DNA of 62,071 nucleotides, from positions 1 to 62,071 of the forward strand of contig CANJNE010000004.1 in the NCBI GenBank assembly GCA_947475275.1. The letters run 5' to 3'. The notes beneath the pieces are model-generated. The model made no database searches. It saw only the letters and a list, made by a program, of their open reading frames with translations, and was not told the origin of the DNA. Shown in pieces: positions 38,433 to 45,262 of the stretch; the stretch's first letter is position 1; every line of letters starts with the position of its first letter. A program made the position numbers and the translations under genes. This DNA is from Flavobacteriales bacterium. GTDB taxonomy: Bacteria > Bacteroidota > Bacteroidia > Flavobacteriales_D > Crocinitomicaceae.

Positions 38433-39257
38433 ATGAAAACAAACCTTTTCAAACAATTATTGACAGCAATACCTTTCGTAATTACAGGTTTTGTAAATGC
38501 TCAAAAGTTCCCACTAACGGTAGGTGTCTCCAGCACGAATACAACTTGTGAGAATTATAATGATGGCAGTATAACGCTAACGGTTTATGGAGGAGTGCAA
38601 CCCTACACCTACTTATGGTCCAATGGAGCAACAAGTCAGTCTGTTGTAAATTTGTCTCCTGGTTTTTACGATGTTATGGTTAGAGATGCTAACACCGCCA
38701 TTTCAATTACAGTTGAGATTAGAAATACATCCAATATTAATATTCAAGGAAGCATAACCAATGCAAGTACTTTTGGTGCTGATGATGGTGGAATTGATGT
38801 ACAACTTTCAGGAATTAGTGGAAATTTCAATTTCAACTGGATTAGCACAAATGGAAATTATGTAAATAACGGCGCTTTGGATCAAGTTAACCTACATGCC
38901 GGAACATATACTCTTACAGTTGTCAACGAAAATGGATGCGAATCTTCAGAAAGTTTCTTGGTTGAACAGCCAAATCCTGTTTTGAATCCGCACAATGCAA
39001 TTAGTAACGATTTTGTTGGACACGAATTTAATGTTAAAGGTTTAATTTACCCAAATCCTAGTAATGGTGCTTTAAATTTTAAAAGTATGGAAGAAGTAAA
39101 TAGTATTGATATATACAATTTAGAGGGCAATTTGGTAAAAAAACTTTATAGTATTGAAGGTAATATAGACGCCATCGACTTGGACAAAGGAACATACAAA
39201 GCGATGATACAAACGATAGACGGAAAAATTACAACAGACACAATCATCGTTAAATAA
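38433..39257 (+). CDS. Secreted SprB-repeat protein with T9SS type A sorting domain
   Basis: The 274-residue protein has a signal peptide (about 1-23, ending NAQ), two SprB-like repeats (about 28-180; the first has YGGVQPYTYLWSNGATSQSV) and a C-terminal sorting domain (about 205-274) with YPNPSNGALNF and KGTYKAMIQTIDGK. It is a small relative of the large SprB-repeat cargo at 13855-17538. The surface role is unknown. Single gene; it is followed by an A/T-rich region with a GGGGAAAA/TTTTCCCC hairpin at about 39280-39303 and a T-run, a likely terminator. Confidence 0.87.
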   Translation: MKTNLFKQLLTAIPFVITGFVNAQKFPLTVGVSSTNTTCENYNDGSITLTVYGGVQPYTYLWSNGATSQSVVNLSPGFYDVMVRDANTAISITVEIRNTSNINIQGSITNASTFGADDGGIDVQLSGISGNFNFNWISTNGNYVNNGALDQVNLHAGTYTLTVVNENGCESSESFLVEQPNPVLNPHNAISNDFVGHEFNVKGLIYPNPSNGALNFKSMEEVNSIDIYNLEGNLVKKLYSIEGNIDAIDLDKGTYKAMIQTIDGKITTDTIIVK

Positions 39258-39400: not shown

Positions 39401-40429
39401 ATGTTTTTAATAAAGTGGTTTGTTCCTATTTTCACACTAGCGGCATTAATATCAAGCTGCGGTTATGAGGAATTAAGTTCCACCAAAAAACAAACACTGA
39501 CAGTTGCTTCTGATTACTTACATGCTTCAGACAGCAGCCTATTTAACGATTTTACTCGAAAAACAAATATCAAGATTAAAATCATTCATCTTCAATCCGA
39601 TTCAATTTCAAAGAAAGTAATTCAGGATCCCTTGAATGTAGAATTTGACTTGATAATGGTTTCTGATATTCTTACTTTGGAAACGCTGCAAAAGAAAAAC
39701 CTTTTACAACAGTTCTCAGAAGATTTAGATAAATCCTCTTCGAAAAATTATTTCTCTATAACGGGATTGGATCCATTGGTATTTAAATCGAAAAGAAATA
39801 TACCAAACGATTCCACGAATTACCAGAATCTTTCAAAAGAATTATGGTATTCAAAACTTAATGAAATAGATTTGAAAAAAATTTACAATTGCATCAAAAA
39901 AACCAATCAATGGTCGACACATGAGTCCGCATTATGGCTTCATCAAGCGGAATTGAAAAAATTGGAATTCCCCATTATGGATAGTTTAGCACCAAGAATA
40001 AATGCGGTTGGTTTCCTTTCTCAATTTGAACAGAAAACGCAAATAATAGATTCTCTGAGTACATTACAAATCTTATTATTTCCTGATCAATTAAATTCGG
40101 GCATATTGTATAATTATTATGGTGCTGGGATTATATGCCAAGCAAGCAATTTTTATGCTGCAAAGCAATTGATTTCATATTTAAAGCGACCATCGCAAGC
40201 CCAAATAATAAATAACAAAATTGGAATAATTACCTACGATCAACAAACCAAAACTGGATTTTATAAAAACAAAAGAATCATTCTAAATCCAAATCCTATA
40301 CAATCCTTTCGGTTTGATTTGAAGTGGTGGAACGATCATCTTAATTATGCGAAAACTATGAAGATTGAGGAGAAGAAGCCAAAACCCAAAAATGTACCCA
40401 TAGCGGATACATTGTTAATAGAAAATTAA
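39401..40429 (+). CDS. Solute-binding-protein-like lipoprotein
   Basis: The 342-residue protein has a lipoprotein signal (ALISSCG, Cys near residue 20). A periplasmic two-lobe substrate-binding-like fold follows, resembling the iron(III)/polyamine type: LTVASDYLHASDSSLFNDFTR, then FDLIMVSDILTLETLQKK, and a late stretch with AKQLISYLKRPSQAQIINN. No transporter genes are adjacent, so its ligand and use are unknown; a tethered sensor or orphan binding protein is possible. Its stop lies 2 bp from the 3' end of the convergent RNase P RNA gene. Confidence 0.72.
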   Translation: MFLIKWFVPIFTLAALISSCGYEELSSTKKQTLTVASDYLHASDSSLFNDFTRKTNIKIKIIHLQSDSISKKVIQDPLNVEFDLIMVSDILTLETLQKKNLLQQFSEDLDKSSSKNYFSITGLDPLVFKSKRNIPNDSTNYQNLSKELWYSKLNEIDLKKIYNCIKKTNQWSTHESALWLHQAELKKLEFPIMDSLAPRINAVGFLSQFEQKTQIIDSLSTLQILLFPDQLNSGILYNYYGAGIICQASNFYAAKQLISYLKRPSQAQIINNKIGIITYDQQTKTGFYKNKRIILNPNPIQSFRFDLKWWNDHLNYAKTMKIEEKKPKPKNVPIADTLLIEN

Positions 40430-40431
40430 AA

Positions 40432-40817
40432 AAGGCAAATCTATAAGCCGGGTTCTGTTTCCACTTGCGTGAATGCCTATCATTTATCTAGCACTAACGT
40501 CACCGTTAGCGTCTATCGACCTACCCTCCGAGATTGGGCGAGCAACCCTTTCAGAATCAATGATTCCATCCTCGGTATACATGGTCTTTCAGCCCGTAAG
40601 GTTTACCTTGCCGCCCATGTCACCATCGACGCGGTGAGCTCTTACCTCACCTTTTCACCTTTTCCACGAAAGTCAAGCCGTCGTGGTAGTTTTCCTTTCT
40701 GTGGCACTTTCTGTCCCCGCTTTCACGAGGCCTTCCTGTTAGGAAGTACGGTACTCTGTGCTGCCCGGACTTTCCTCTCTCCCGAAAATTCGAGACAGCG
40801 ATAGACCGATTTGCCTT
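40432..40817 (-). ncRNA. rnpB: RNase P RNA (class A)
   Basis: About 386 nt on the minus strand. The conserved core is clear: GAGAGGAAAGTCCGGGC near the 5' end, CCACAGAAAG, GGTAAGAGCTCACC, AGATAAATGATAGGC, and ACAGAACCCGGCTTA near the 3' end. The ends pair as P1 (AAGGCAAATC with GATTTGCCTT). It is the catalytic RNA that trims tRNA 5' leaders. The P1 3' strand runs into a T-run and may double as the terminator. A TAACTTTG box sits 4 nt before the 5' end. Confidence 0.97.
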
Positions 40818-40821
40818 GAAG

Positions 40822-40829
40822 CAAAGTTA
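40822..40829 (-). promoter_or_regulatory. -7 promoter element of rnpB
   Basis: TAACTTTG on the minus strand, four nucleotides before the RNase P RNA 5' end. This gives an internal ruler for other promoters here. The box lies in the 26 bp between rnpB and the stop of the preceding T9SS gene. Confidence 0.75.
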
Positions 40830-40843
40830 CAATAAAGTTGTGG

Positions 40844-41953
40844 TTAATTGATATTTATAGCTTTTAGGAAGGTTCCTTGTGCGGTCTGTCCAAAAATCCA
40901 ATAATTTCCAGACTCAAATGATGCAACATTTACAGTCAAAATAGAACCGCTTGGCCCATGTTCGTATACAATTTGACCAGCTGCATTCAATATGGTGATG
41001 GATTCCATTTCGTATGGTAAAATAATTTCAATTTTATCATCTGATGGATTTGGGTAAACTTTCACTTCACTTGATAAATCATTTGCTATGATACTTGCGA
41101 ACTCAGGCCTATAAATATCGCGGTATTCAATAGCAGTGACCGTTTCATTACCTAAAATTTCAGTTGTGTTAATTCTTAAGATAGGTTCTTTTTCCCCATT
41201 TGTCCACCACTCGTATTGATGGGATGCCGGAATGTCTAGTGGAATCCAAGTTGCGCCAATGAAAGGGAATTCTGTAAATAAAGAATCTATTTCATCGATA
41301 TCATGTCGAATACGTAAAGCTTCAAATGTACCGAAAGGTGTTGTAATTGAGCCGTATCCATCAACTTCAGTAAATCTTGAACGGTGCTGGTTCCATTTGG
41401 CATTGTAAATAGGGTTAAAATCAACACTGGTTGCACCTCGTGAAAAATGTGTGTTTCCAAAAGCTAAAGGAAAATCATAAGGTGTTTCAATGGTGTCAGA
41501 TTGAATAGGAATTGTGGTTGCAGAGCCATTAAAGGATACAGTCATGGCAATTCCAACAGCAGTTAATGAATCTGCAGTTCGTTTATTGAATTGAAATACA
41601 TCTTGTATACCAATAGGTAAAAACGAGGTGATTTGCTGAAGCGGCAGTGCGGAAGACTCTATGAAATAACTTGCTTGATACTTTGCCGGAGCGAAAGTCC
41701 CAAAGATAAAATTCACAAAGGCACCCGCATTTACAACAGGTTGAAAATTTTTCAAAGTTTGTCCTGTGGGTGTTAAATTGGAAAAATTCCAAGTCTGTGA
41801 TTGACCAGTTGTAGCAAAATCGATTGTAGGATCTAATGCAGAACTCATTCGAACCGTATCATTGGTGGTAGCAAAATCAGTGAATGAAAGAGTTATTTGC
41901 CCAGATAATTGAACGCTGATAAAAATAACTGGTATTAAAAACAATTGCTTCAT
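40844..41953 (-). CDS. Secreted protein with T9SS type A sorting domain
   Basis: The 369-residue protein has a signal peptide (about 1-18, ending SGQ) and a beta-rich body without a recognised domain (about 20-285). The C-terminal sorting domain (about 290-369) has VYPNPSDDKIEI and ESGNYWIFGQTAQGTFLK. It is the last gene of the run sigma factor - membrane/barrel protein - lipoprotein - this protein, 38 bp after the lipoprotein gene. That suggests its expression may be under the ECF sigma factor of the same run. The function is unknown. Confidence 0.83.
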   Translation of the reverse strand: MKQLFLIPVIFISVQLSGQITLSFTDFATTNDTVRMSSALDPTIDFATTGQSQTWNFSNLTPTGQTLKNFQPVVNAGAFVNFIFGTFAPAKYQASYFIESSALPLQQITSFLPIGIQDVFQFNKRTADSLTAVGIAMTVSFNGSATTIPIQSDTIETPYDFPLAFGNTHFSRGATSVDFNPIYNAKWNQHRSRFTEVDGYGSITTPFGTFEALRIRHDIDEIDSLFTEFPFIGATWIPLDIPASHQYEWWTNGEKEPILRINTTEILGNETVTAIEYRDIYRPEFASIIANDLSSEVKVYPNPSDDKIEIILPYEMESITILNAAGQIVYEHGPSGSILTVNVASFESGNYWIFGQTAQGTFLKAININ

Positions 41954-41991
41954 GATGTAAATTTGGTCAAATATACATTAAAGGTTTGTCA

Positions 41992-43047
41992 TTATTCTAC
42001 TTGAAGAGCAAAATCAATTTCACCTTCGAATGGCGATATTTCGCCTGTTTGGATATCTATCATTTCACACGAAATGACTCCATGGATTTTAACAACCTGC
42101 TTTCCTGAAGCGTTTAATCCATATGGTACCACCGATTCAACGTTAAAAAAATCTTGCGATTGCTCGTTGTGAATAGAAACATACTCCTTGTTATTCCAAT
42201 TTAAAAAAATCTGGGTACTGTAATCTTCATTAGGTCCTTGCCAACTGTTCTCAATGGATGCAAAATCATCAATATATTTACCTTCAAGTGAACCATCAAT
42301 CCATATCGATCTTGTACGTTTCGAACCATTTTCAAAGATTAATTCAGCTCTTAAACTATGCGCATTTTGATCTATCACAATATTCAAATCTTCTTCTGAA
42401 CTAGCCCATTGATCATCTAAATACCAATCTATATGGTCAATATCCTCCTCATTCTCGTCTATCCAGACTTTTAAATCACCATCATTGGTCAGAAAATGTC
42501 TTACTTGAAAATGGGAGTCATGAGCATATCCAAGAATGATATCATTACATACATTTGCACTAGAGCCATCAATAAACAGAACATTCGCGCAGACTTCAAA
42601 AACACCACTCTGGTTCAGAATTACATCATTTAAACCCGCAAAATTACCATCTACAAACCATTCAATACTCTGTATCATGTTACTGTTAGGCATATTCGAT
42701 TTTGATAGCGTAATTTGATTGTTATTGGGATAACTTGATAAAGCCACACTTGAATTCAATGCATCAATAAATGGAATATTTAATAAACCATCTTTAAAAA
42801 CAATTTTGAGCCCATCATTCCCATTGTACAATCGACCAAAATAGTTTTTAACACCATTTTCAGTGAAGATTCCCGTTTCCATAACCCAGCCATTATCTCC
42901 AGCTGTAAATTGAAAATCTTCGTTAGCAATACTACCTGAAGCTTTAAAAATAGGGTCATTTCCTAGCGGTGGATCTTTAATCTCCAGTTTTGAACAACTC
43001 GATAGTATCAATATAAAAATCAATAAATTAAATAATCCCCTTATCAT
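41992..43047 (-). CDS. Lipoprotein with PKD/Ig-like segments, unknown
   Basis: The 351-residue protein has a lipoprotein signal (LILSSCSK, Cys near 18) and a beta-rich mature part. Two PKD-like pieces, IEWFVDGNFAGL and IDWYLDDQWASS, are each followed by a strand pattern typical of Ig/PKD folds. It is probably at the outer membrane or surface. Its ATG overlaps the stop of the preceding gene by 4 bp (ATGA), so translation is coupled to the membrane/barrel protein. No catalytic motif is seen. Confidence 0.75.
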   Translation of the reverse strand: MIRGLFNLLIFILILSSCSKLEIKDPPLGNDPIFKASGSIANEDFQFTAGDNGWVMETGIFTENGVKNYFGRLYNGNDGLKIVFKDGLLNIPFIDALNSSVALSSYPNNNQITLSKSNMPNSNMIQSIEWFVDGNFAGLNDVILNQSGVFEVCANVLFIDGSSANVCNDIILGYAHDSHFQVRHFLTNDGDLKVWIDENEEDIDHIDWYLDDQWASSEEDLNIVIDQNAHSLRAELIFENGSKRTRSIWIDGSLEGKYIDDFASIENSWQGPNEDYSTQIFLNWNNKEYVSIHNEQSQDFFNVESVVPYGLNASGKQVVKIHGVISCEMIDIQTGEISPFEGEIDFALQVE

Positions 43048-44138
43048 TTATCAAAGTTTAAAGATCGTTTTAAATAAAAATTAAATTCGATCGGATTATT
43101 TCTCGCTTCACCTTTAAAACGGTTCGAATTGGTTGGTTTGATTAAAGAAATACCGGCATTAACTCCAATTGAAGTTTTGTTATTAATACTGTAGGAATAA
43201 CCTAGGAAAGGTTGAACACCAAACCTATTAAACAAATCAACTCCTGTGTATCCCTCACTTGTTTTTGAAGTTTGATTATCCAATGTTTCTTTGTAAAAAA
43301 CAGTAGTCATTAAATTTGCTCGTGCACGCAATCCCGCCTCAAAATCATGTTTAGACAACCCATAAGATACTGAAATCGGTACAATTACACTTAACATTGA
43401 ACCAAATTTGTAGGATTGTTCTAACTCCGAAGAACTGAAGTCATATATTTTTGTACGTTCCTCAATTTTCAATTCATCAAACTTTGTTAGCTGTAAACCA
43501 ACACCGAAATTGATATTAAAATTTTTGATTGGTTTTTGGTATTCGGCTTTGATGGCAAGAATTCCATTAACTGAATTATTTTCGCTAGTTATCCAACTTT
43601 GCTCTACCCCCCCATGTATTGAAATAGCAAAATGATTGGCGGAAAACTTTGAAACTTTTGAGTTAGTTTTGGCAGTTAAAATTTCTTTTTGCTTTGTTGG
43701 GAAACCAATAGCGAGAGGATAAAGTTCAGGTTTAGTTATTTTTCCCTCCAATGCTTGTTTTATTTCTAATGGATGTGCTTTTTCTTCTGCTTTTTCGACA
43801 GAAGTAACCAAATTTAAACCAATTGAATGATCTTTAACAAACCCATGATTACTTTCTACAGCAGCATGAGCCCTTGTGAATTTCGGACGCTTTAATTCAA
43901 TCTTAGTTTTGGAAGGTTTGTTCAAAAAGATTATTTGTGATTCACCAATTAAATATCTCATTGAACCCAATGGAATCAATGAAAGCAGGCAAATCAAAAA
44001 TAGTTGTTTTAAGTACGACTTTTTGTATATCGGTAATTGTAACTCGATATCCCTAAAATATTTTGTCTTATATTTTGGTCTATATCCGGTTTCAGCTCCC
44101 CTGAACAAATCGTCTAAATCTCTATCTGTCAGGTTCAT
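43044..44138 (-). CDS. Single-helix membrane protein with beta-barrel-like C-terminal region, downstream of an ECF sigma factor
   Basis: The 364-residue protein is called from the ATG that overlaps the sigma-factor stop (ATGA). Its N-terminus, MNLTDRDLDDLFRGAE, is short and acidic, and a basic stretch follows. One membrane helix (about 41-60) comes next, then a linker and a C-terminal region (about 165-364) whose alternating strands resemble outer-membrane beta-barrel proteins. The position directly after a sigma gene is the usual place of an anti-sigma factor, and the cytoplasmic N-terminal segment could play that role. A combined helix-plus-barrel chain is odd for one membrane and raises the question of where it sits. 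Confidence 0.75.
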   Translation of the reverse strand: MNLTDRDLDDLFRGAETGYRPKYKTKYFRDIELQLPIYKKSYLKQLFLICLLSLIPLGSMRYLIGESQIIFLNKPSKTKIELKRPKFTRAHAAVESNHGFVKDHSIGLNLVTSVEKAEEKAHPLEIKQALEGKITKPELYPLAIGFPTKQKEILTAKTNSKVSKFSANHFAISIHGGVEQSWITSENNSVNGILAIKAEYQKPIKNFNINFGVGLQLTKFDELKIEERTKIYDFSSSELEQSYKFGSMLSVIVPISVSYGLSKHDFEAGLRARANLMTTVFYKETLDNQTSKTSEGYTGVDLFNRFGVQPFLGYSYSINNKTSIGVNAGISLIKPTNSNRFKGEARNNPIEFNFYLKRSLNFDK

Positions 44139-44704
44139 ATTACCATTTTTTGATTGTACCACTCCAATTTTTCCACCTTCTCGCGAAGTTGTTTCCTTGC
44201 GATTGAAAGATGCCATTTCGAAGTTCCCTCTGACATCTTCAATAATTCTCCAATTTCTTTGTGTGAAAACCCTTCAAAAACATACATATTGAAAACCTTA
44301 GCACTAGTTTCTGGAAGTTCTGTAATCAATTTTAATAGTTGATCGTATCCCATTGAAGACTCAGCCGTATTGACAACGGTCAAACTTCCGATTTCAAGTT
44401 CCCTTTCGGTTTCTTTTGACGAAATATGATTTAAGTATTTTTTGTTTTTACGGTACTCATCGATAAGATTATTTACCATTATGCGTTTCGACCAGGCCCA
44501 GAAATTTAATGTTTCATCCGTTTGGTGAAGACCTTTAAGAATCTTTATAAAGCCAGAATTCAGTGACGCTCTTGCATCTTCTTCATTTTTATTATACCTG
44601 TAACACAAAGGCATAAATTTATGGAAACACTGCTCATAAAGCCATTTAATTGCCTTTCTATCATCGGCAATGCAAGCTTTAATAATTTCAGCGTTTACAA
44701 TCAT
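44135..44704 (-). CDS. ECF-type RNA polymerase sigma factor
   Basis: The 189-residue sigma-70 family protein has a region 2 (about 15-85, with FWAWSKRIMVNNLIDEYRK near the -10-binding helix). Region 4 (about 125-180) carries the helix-turn-helix SHKEIGELLKMSEGTSKWHLSIARKQLRE. No N-terminal extension is present, as expected for the ECF group. It is the first gene of a run with an ATGA-coupled membrane protein that may act as its anti-sigma factor. It probably activates genes in response to an envelope signal, which may include its own operon. Confidence 0.92.
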   Translation of the reverse strand: MIVNAEIIKACIADDRKAIKWLYEQCFHKFMPLCYRYNKNEEDARASLNSGFIKILKGLHQTDETLNFWAWSKRIMVNNLIDEYRKNKKYLNHISSKETERELEIGSLTVVNTAESSMGYDQLLKLITELPETSAKVFNMYVFEGFSHKEIGELLKMSEGTSKWHLSIARKQLREKVEKLEWYNQKMVI

Positions 44705-44776
44705 TTGATTTAAACTTTTATATAAGTTTATATGGGAATTAATCTGAACCTAAAAATAGACGTAAAATTCAATAAA

Positions 44777-45262
44777 ATGGTTGGTTTACAATTACATTTA
44801 ATTCGGCATGCGAAAACAGAAAAGATTTCTCAAACGGGAAGTGATTTTGACCGTGCCTTATTACCCAAGGGGATCAAGCAGGCCAATGCATTAGCTACTT
44901 TTTTAGAAAACAAACAAAATTTTGAAATTTTACTTTGTTCATCGGCAAAAAGAACTCAAGAAACGAAAAATATTCTAAGTGAAAAACTGATTTTCCATTC
45001 GATAAAAGATTTCCCTGAGTTGTATCTTGCGAGTCAGTTCGAAATATTACAATTAATTTGTGAGCAACAAGATGTGAAAGTTATTTGGATTGTTGGCCAT
45101 AATGAAGGCATTTCAGATTTGGCTTCTTATCTCACTGGAAATAACATTCACATGAAGACTTGCGCATATGTTTGTTTGACACCTACTATCGATCAATGGT
45201 CTCATTTGACTGCGAATTCATGTCTGGTTTCAGATTTGTTTCGACCGGAGATTGATGCTTAA
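44777..45262 (+). CDS. SixA-like histidine phosphatase
   Basis: A 161-residue phosphatase of the histidine-phosphatase superfamily. The catalytic RHA motif is LHLIRHAKTE near the N-terminus and the second His is in VGHNEGISDL. The short length fits SixA, which dephosphorylates a His-phosphotransfer protein, but other substrates are possible. I use the internal Met just before LQLHLIRH, since a further upstream Met adds unusual residues. Its last 77 bp overlap the convergent rhomboid gene. Confidence 0.85.
   Translation: MVGLQLHLIRHAKTEKISQTGSDFDRALLPKGIKQANALATFLENKQNFEILLCSSAKRTQETKNILSEKLIFHSIKDFPELYLASQFEILQLICEQQDVKVIWIVGHNEGISDLASYLTGNNIHMKTCAYVCLTPTIDQWSHLTANSCLVSDLFRPEIDA

Follow-up and report, generated by a model that had tools for sequence, protein, structure and literature searches.

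Does a sigma factor encoded beside a membrane protein, a lipoprotein and a secreted protein govern all three of its neighbours, or only some of them? This question is raised by a run of four genes on the minus strand (44704-40844) of a stretch of 62,071 nucleotides from a Flavobacteriales bacterium of the Crocinitomicaceae (GenBank assembly GCA_947475275.1, contig CANJNE010000004.1, positions 1 to 62,071 of the forward strand), hereafter called the window. The genes, which we refer to as SIG, BARREL, LIPO and CARGO, are as follows.

44135-44704, minus strand: SIG, gene of an extracytoplasmic function (ECF) type sigma factor, 189 residues
43044-44138, minus strand: BARREL, whole Dma-like gene, 364 residues, overlapping SIG and LIPO by 4 bp each
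41992-43047, minus strand: LIPO, lipoprotein gene, 351 residues, all-beta, with the lipobox LSSC in its sequence
40844-41953, minus strand: CARGO, gene of a secreted protein sorted by the type IX secretion system (T9SS), 369 residues, with a Por_Secre_tail match over the cut-off

The original prediction, which was made from the window alone, described these four genes, two ATGA junctions (SIG/BARREL at 44138-44135 and BARREL/LIPO at 43047-43044) and a gap of 38 bp between the LIPO stop and the CARGO start, and its coordinates were confirmed. It further proposed a single chain in which an envelope signal releases the sigma factor, which then drives both the lipoprotein and the secreted protein. 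We arrive at a narrower reading and give it a probability of roughly 80%: SIG, BARREL and LIPO together make up a module for envelope signalling of the Dma/Das kind, and CARGO and the following gene, rnpB, are neighbours with housekeeping promoters of their own.

Conservation of SIG, BARREL and LIPO

SIG exceeds the Pfam cut-offs of Sigma70_r4_2 (3.7e-13), Sigma70_ECF (1e-10), Sigma70_r2 (2.9e-7) and Sigma70_r4, and it exceeds the cut-off of the NCBIfam model sigma70-ECF with 81.2 bits; its score against TIGR02985 (72.5 bits) lies below the cut-off of that model (126.4). The start codon in the 4-bp overlap of SIG and BARREL is found at the identical position in 39 of the 41 other Crocinitomicaceae loci that carry both genes, and the overlap is therefore not a matter of chance. 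SIG also precedes BARREL in all 20 loci retrieved through BARREL matches, mostly with the same overlap. Moreover, the SIG-BARREL distances of 36 loci, controlled for LIPO, CARGO and the adjacent SixA-like gene, are correlated (partial r 0.47), and none of 999 permutations gave a value as high.

The three genes are present or absent together. Among the 26 genomes of the window's genus, its own included, 15 carry an orthologue of SIG (at least 311 bits at a threshold of 310; the best sigma match in the other 11 genomes reaches at most 146 bits), and the same 15 carry an orthologue of BARREL. LIPO occurs in 14 of them, and in the fifteenth (G001) the contig ends inside BARREL. The remaining 11 genomes are without an orthologue of SIG, BARREL or LIPO. 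Two of these, G006 and G019, have weak matches to the BARREL profile (39 and 24 bits) of another kind, and that of G006 adjoins another sigma gene (L156).

Across the order, relatives of LIPO (E up to 1e-8) were found in 58 of 299 genomes (families f1, f4, f8 and f9). Pairing of the matches by eye gave 55 of these 58 a SIG relative upstream of LIPO, located on the same contig and strand. In the three unpaired genomes, the matches lie on different contigs (G194), LIPO lies 978 bases from the contig start (G295), or no SIG was found on the contig of LIPO (G207). In addition, a shorter LIPO relative follows SIG and a BARREL-like gene in family f13 (L154), and genes for BARREL-like proteins also stand behind other related sigma genes within the order. 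The original prediction named gene-order conservation as a check on its four-gene chain. SIG, BARREL and LIPO are indeed kept together well beyond the genus; LIPO is missing in some lineages, and CARGO proved separable.

A further arrangement was observed in L136 (G000:C48) and L155, in which another ECF sigma gene is followed at -8 bp by a gene for a protein of about 430 residues, whose features include an N-terminal segment and, near residues 42-51, a helix. By eye, the C-terminus of this protein is unlike a barrel, and both sigma genes adjoin a gene resembling malate dehydrogenase.

BARREL architecture, proposed mechanism and the box upstream of SIG

The AlphaFold model of BARREL was built with 39 relatives (alignment A5), L070 and L095 being excluded for want of a start codon at the overlap. 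Confidence is given as the predicted local distance difference test score (pLDDT). The protein is divided into four parts.

44025-44138, minus strand: residues 1-38, cytoplasmic, presumed sigma-binding segment (AlphaFold helices 5-16 and 25-34)
43950-44015, minus strand: residues 42-63, predicted inner-membrane helix (model helices 42-53 and 57-63; hydropathy peak at residue 48)
43644-43949, minus strand: residues 64-165, predicted disordered periplasmic tether (pLDDT below 50 at 59-130, 139-145 and 149-163)
43047-43643, minus strand: residues 166-364, predicted outer-membrane beta-barrel, 8-stranded, OmpA/OprF type (block pLDDT 94-98 at 171-360)

The beta domain is modelled with high confidence over residues 169-360, and DSSP assigns ten strand segments to it. 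The best Foldseek match of BARREL is OmpA (E 1.0e-6), and residues ~166-361 align with OprF, NspA, PagL, OmpA (1qjp) and OmpW at Z 14-16 and a root-mean-square deviation (rmsd) of 2.6-4.3 over 131-169 residues. Because the whole C-terminal region matches outer-membrane barrels, we regard it as such a barrel and not as a soluble domain, and the structural matches lead us to predict that it is closed and eight-stranded. OMP_b-brl matches were obtained for 5 of 40 BARREL homologues (best 8.7e-8). The single membrane helix that had been suspected from the sequence is borne out by the model, and the barrel-like C-terminus by the model, by Foldseek and by the structural matches; the choice between barrel and soluble domain, which the original prediction left to structure prediction, falls to the barrel at that level. 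The cytoplasmic segment had also been called acidic; this applies to its first ~16 residues and not to residues 1-38 as a whole, where a count by eye gives equal numbers of acidic and basic residues (7 each).

Over 40 BARREL sequences, conservation is highest in the N-terminal 38 residues, where the mean pairwise identity is 44%; it falls to 28% in the barrel and to 12% in the tether. The tether varies from 102 residues, its length in the window, to 197. The charge around the helix is on average more positive before it than after it, and a hydropathy peak of at least 1.5 lies within the first 110 residues in 35 of the 40. Searches with family models returned little. Neither BARREL nor LIPO has a Pfam or NCBIfam match at E up to 1; anti-sigma family models do not match the window's BARREL, and one of the 40 homologues matches an NCBIfam anti-sigma model weakly (E 0.0089). 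FecR models match neither the window's BARREL (E up to 1) nor any of the 40 homologues (E up to 0.1). A PDB sequence search with the BARREL profile returned nothing at E up to 1, and when contigs were scanned with the BARREL sequence alone, none of the 135 pattern matches was confirmed as a relative.

According to the passages of PMC13088901 that bear on the class, Dma2 consists of an N-terminal anti-sigma domain, a transmembrane helix, a long disordered tether and a C-terminal barrel, and it adjoins an ECF21 sigma gene. BARREL, set beside Dma2 by description, has the same four features of the class, namely barrel, transmembrane helix, disordered tether and adjoining sigma gene. The original prediction had expected an anti-sigma factor at this place; the position fits, and so does the full domain order of the published anti-sigma class. 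By prediction and analogy, the idea of BARREL as an anti-sigma factor that senses the envelope is likely right.

We propose the following mechanism, in which sigma binding, release and autoregulation are modelled on the Bacteroides system. The first ~38 residues of BARREL would hold SIG at the inner membrane, in which the single helix would anchor the protein; a flexible leash of ~100 residues would span the periplasm, and the C-terminal barrel would be inserted in the outer membrane. A change in the outer membrane, sensed through the barrel or through LIPO acting on the barrel, would free SIG. The freed SIG would most likely transcribe its own operon and further envelope genes. CARGO and rnpB would be transcribed from their own housekeeping promoters and would not be dedicated outputs.

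The promoter region of SIG was compared in 42 upstream stretches, those of the window and 41 loci. TAnnTTGC occurs in 23 of them, every time exactly 43 bases before the presumed start, and either TAnnTTGC or TAnnTTAC occurs in 34 (31 at 43 bases), against a random background of ~3-4%. The housekeeping-type TAnnTTTG is present in only 2 of the 42, compared with 23 for TAnnTTGY. In the portion of PMC9723704 that deals with promoter classes, TAnnTTGY at -12 to -5 is the SM5 class of F. psychrophilum and is attributed to an unidentified alternative sigma factor. We would guess that SIG itself reads a box of this type. A start of SIG at a TTG within the TATATTGC motif of relatives was considered and rejected: the box fits the published TAnnTTGY class (the same portion of PMC9723704), and would place the transcription start downstream of itself.

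Three further observations concern this region. An element resembling GTAAATTGCATA is conserved at a fixed distance before SIG in the loci L051-L130 (in L055, for example, 43 bases from the start) and fits the SM5 class. The TTAC variants of the upstream element are nearly palindromic (TGTAAATTACA). In L064, L066, L068, L091, L093 and L103, the presumed start codon of SIG is ATA, ATC, ACT or CTC, and translation probably starts slightly upstream of the presumed position in these loci.

The AlphaFold model of LIPO is confident and all-beta (mean pLDDT 89.5). A PKD/Ig-like domain lies at residues 175-255 (PKD match at Z 10.2, 78 residues aligned, rmsd 2.0), and it is mainly this region that the Foldseek and VIA-align matches cover when the model is searched in one piece. 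None of 41 LIPO homologues matches the DUF4943, DUF4858 or NigD models at E up to 0.1; a remote kinship with NigD is possible. It is conceivable, and on balance improbable, that the sensor has LIPO as a dedicated third component: lodged in the outer membrane, this PKD-like lipoprotein would bind BARREL and set the tension or occupancy at which SIG is released. RcsF-type sensing is somewhat similar to such a partner role. If LIPO does act in this way, a leash across the envelope would read the state of the outer membrane through a lipoprotein partner within one operon, and in lineages that lack LIPO the barrel would be the only sensing part.

CARGO, rnpB and the rival explanations

The sorting domain of CARGO is present (PF18962, Por_Secre_tail, 34.4 bits at a cut-off of 27, E 2.8e-8; TIGR04183, 23.9 at a cut-off of 23). 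The features that bear on its relation to the other three genes are listed below.

41968-41975, minus strand: TATATTTG, housekeeping-type -7 box upstream of CARGO, of the form TAnnTTTG
40822-40829, minus strand: TAACTTTG, presumed -7 box of rnpB, at -12 to -5 from the RNA start predicted with Rfam
40428-40817, minus strand: rnpB, RNase P RNA class A (Rfam RF00010, 278 bits), the usual neighbour of CARGO
413-730 of L076 and 1730-2047 of L078: joint-loss scar, in which the LIPO tail and the CARGO box remain

In the promoter portion of PMC9723704, TAnnTTTG is the -7 element of flavobacterial sigma-A, and the spacing of TAACTTTG is as published there. The rnpB gene, which was absent from the original prediction, follows CARGO on the same strand after 26 bp. 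Within 300 bp after CARGO, the rnpB motif was found in 64 of 80 loci, including 28 of the 36 that have CARGO only, and 46 of these 64 rnpB genes have a TAnnTTTG-type box.

The 80 Crocinitomicaceae loci were retrieved by CARGO alignment and are the best 80 of 104 relatives. The order SIG-BARREL-LIPO-CARGO is found in 37, BARREL-LIPO-CARGO cut by the contig start in 3, SIG-BARREL-CARGO in 4, and CARGO without SIG or BARREL upstream in 36, five of which have too short an upstream contig for a verdict. In a quick tree of CARGO with 76 scored rows (L065, L107, L118, L121 and L128 were left unscored for little upstream contig), the presence of SIG-BARREL changes at least 5 times, a count that does not separate gain from loss. 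In the window's genus, CARGO is kept in 10 of the 11 genomes without the trio, the copy in G016 being a fragment; G019, which is 75% complete, is the one without it. Conversely, CARGO does not follow the trio in three loci of the same family (L047, L049 and L148) and in four loci of other families (L050, L149, L152 and L154). The TAnnTTTG box lies upstream of CARGO in 47 of the 80 loci, with a random background of ~4-5% (random 90-mers), and TAnnTTGY in none of the 80. One joint loss is preserved as a deletion scar in L076 and L078, which are close to L075: SIG, BARREL and most of LIPO are gone, and CARGO and its box are kept. When the SixA-CARGO gap of these two loci is compared with L075, identity is 81% from SixA to the region of the SIG start and 76-77% across the last ~120 bases of LIPO and on into CARGO.

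These observations bear on the chain of the original prediction, in which released SIG drives both LIPO and CARGO as one four-gene circuit. CARGO persists without the trio, has a housekeeping-type box whether the trio precedes it (22 of the 40 loci with BARREL and LIPO) or not (24 of the 36 with CARGO alone; 1 of the 4 with SIG and BARREL only), is absent behind the trio in several genomes and survives in the deletion scar; therefore, we do not consider it to be part of the circuit. The four-gene chain is probably not correct and we hold it to be unlikely, although the order of all four genes in 37 loci speaks for it. The claim that the sigma factor drives the secreted protein is thus not upheld, and a tempting link between SIG and T9SS cargo is corrected.

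Several results nevertheless weigh against our own reading, and some of them favour the four-gene circuit. Even after control, partial correlations of 0.49 and 0.32 remain for the LIPO-CARGO and SIG-CARGO distances (matched by 0 of 999 permutations in each case). These values exceed 0.14 (46/999) for BARREL-LIPO and 0.18 and 0.22 (9/999 each) for the outside pairs SixA-CARGO and SixA-SIG, and they weaken the view of CARGO as a pure bystander. No terminator-like site above chance was found between LIPO and CARGO, and read-through is therefore possible. CARGO also directly follows SIG-BARREL in loci that lack LIPO (L048 and, among the 80, L074, L085, L122 and L113, the last from Brumimicrobium mesophilum). 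Some coupling of CARGO to the trio is possible. For 33 of the 80 loci, the stretch upstream of CARGO gave no TAnnTTTG box, a count that includes as misses a few (e.g., L058, L061, L062, L063 and L086) in which the CARGO start was misplaced to the start of the open reading frame. A clear box was found neither upstream of the window's SIG nor upstream of that of the close relative L031. By simple hydropathy, 5 of the 40 BARREL homologues have no strong helix in the first 110 residues. Finally, LIPO is not obligatory: among 61 genomes of the family with SIG above 250 bits, paired by eye as before, it is present in 46 and absent (E up to 1e-8) in 15, of which 11 belong to genus g11 and 4 to genus g7.

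Two other explanations would deny the module itself. BARREL might be merely a structural linker of inner and outer membrane, co-transcribed by chance, with SIG controlled elsewhere, and the near absence of anti-sigma model matches among BARREL and its homologues is what this view would expect. We consider it very unlikely: the architecture and position are those of Dma1 and Dma2, whose loss activates their sigma factors according to the passages cited above (PMC13088901), the N-terminal segment is the best-conserved part of BARREL, SIG and BARREL are jointly present or absent in the 26 genomes of the genus, and BARREL-like proteins follow other related sigma genes. The fixed order might also be regional synteny of functionally unlinked genes in a suf-rnpB-sixA-rhomboid neighbourhood, the genes around the run being likewise kept in many relatives. 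This is scarcely credible, because the order of the trio is the same in other surroundings and other families (L046, L050, L149, L152 and L154) and the trio is missing as a unit from a neighbourhood that is otherwise kept.

With regard to that neighbourhood, many relatives have SIG in a divergent pair with a gene for a SixA-like histidine phosphatase (window 44732-45262, plus strand); in 11 of the 36 CARGO-only loci this gene lies directly upstream of CARGO. Just past rnpB and a gene for a solute-binding-like lipoprotein, the window encodes a small protein that combines SprB repeats with a T9SS sorting domain (38433-39257, plus strand).

Comparison with known systems

The reading of SIG, BARREL and LIPO as a Dma/Das-like module can be set against three described arrangements. 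In FecI/FecR-type signalling, an anti-sigma protein of the inner membrane relays control of an ECF sigma factor from the outer membrane. The window module shares this control of an ECF sigma factor, as proposed here, but it has neither a FecR match nor a TonB-dependent receptor, and the barrel and the presumed anti-sigma segment are united in one protein. A sensor in which one protein physically links the cytoplasm to the outer membrane would be of unusual design. In PorXY-SigP of Porphyromonas gingivalis, which controls T9SS genes, an ECF sigma factor is likewise linked to T9SS biology (PMC7712824); in contrast, the window run has no two-component genes, and its T9SS link is the single CARGO gene, which is separable from SIG.

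The closest likeness is with Dma/Das, of which Dma1/Das1 was reportedly described in a PNAS paper of 2024. The original prediction stated that no system with this gene order had been described; however, the relevant passages of PMC13088901 describe the Bacteroides dma2 operon, which consists of das2 (BT_1559), dma2 (BT_1558) and BT_1557. In the same passages, deletion of dma2 raises das2, bt_1557, bt_1556 and bt_1555, which is the pattern expected of autoregulation, and increases vesicles in a das2-dependent manner. Loss of Dma1 reportedly raises vesicles in Bacteroides thetaiotaomicron as well. The Dma class is stated to occur among Bacteroidota (PMC13088901), and its occurrence in Flavobacteriales may already be implied by the PNAS paper of 2024.

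Among the matches listed in the open-licence literature, the known Dma experiments concern Bacteroides thetaiotaomicron, and no paper on the module in Crocinitomicaceae was found among those listed from open-licence PMC. The novelty lies in a compact module that occurs in several Flavobacteriales families, usually with a lipoprotein partner. Because close relatives exist with and without it, its output can be tested by comparing transcriptomes. The two systems share an ECF sigma gene beside a protein with an N-terminal segment, one helix, a disordered tether and a C-terminal barrel, and both are three-gene operons with a further gene of unknown function. They differ in that the window module belongs to Flavobacteriales, that its third gene encodes a PKD-containing lipoprotein family, and that in Crocinitomicaceae it precedes a T9SS-sorted protein and rnpB.

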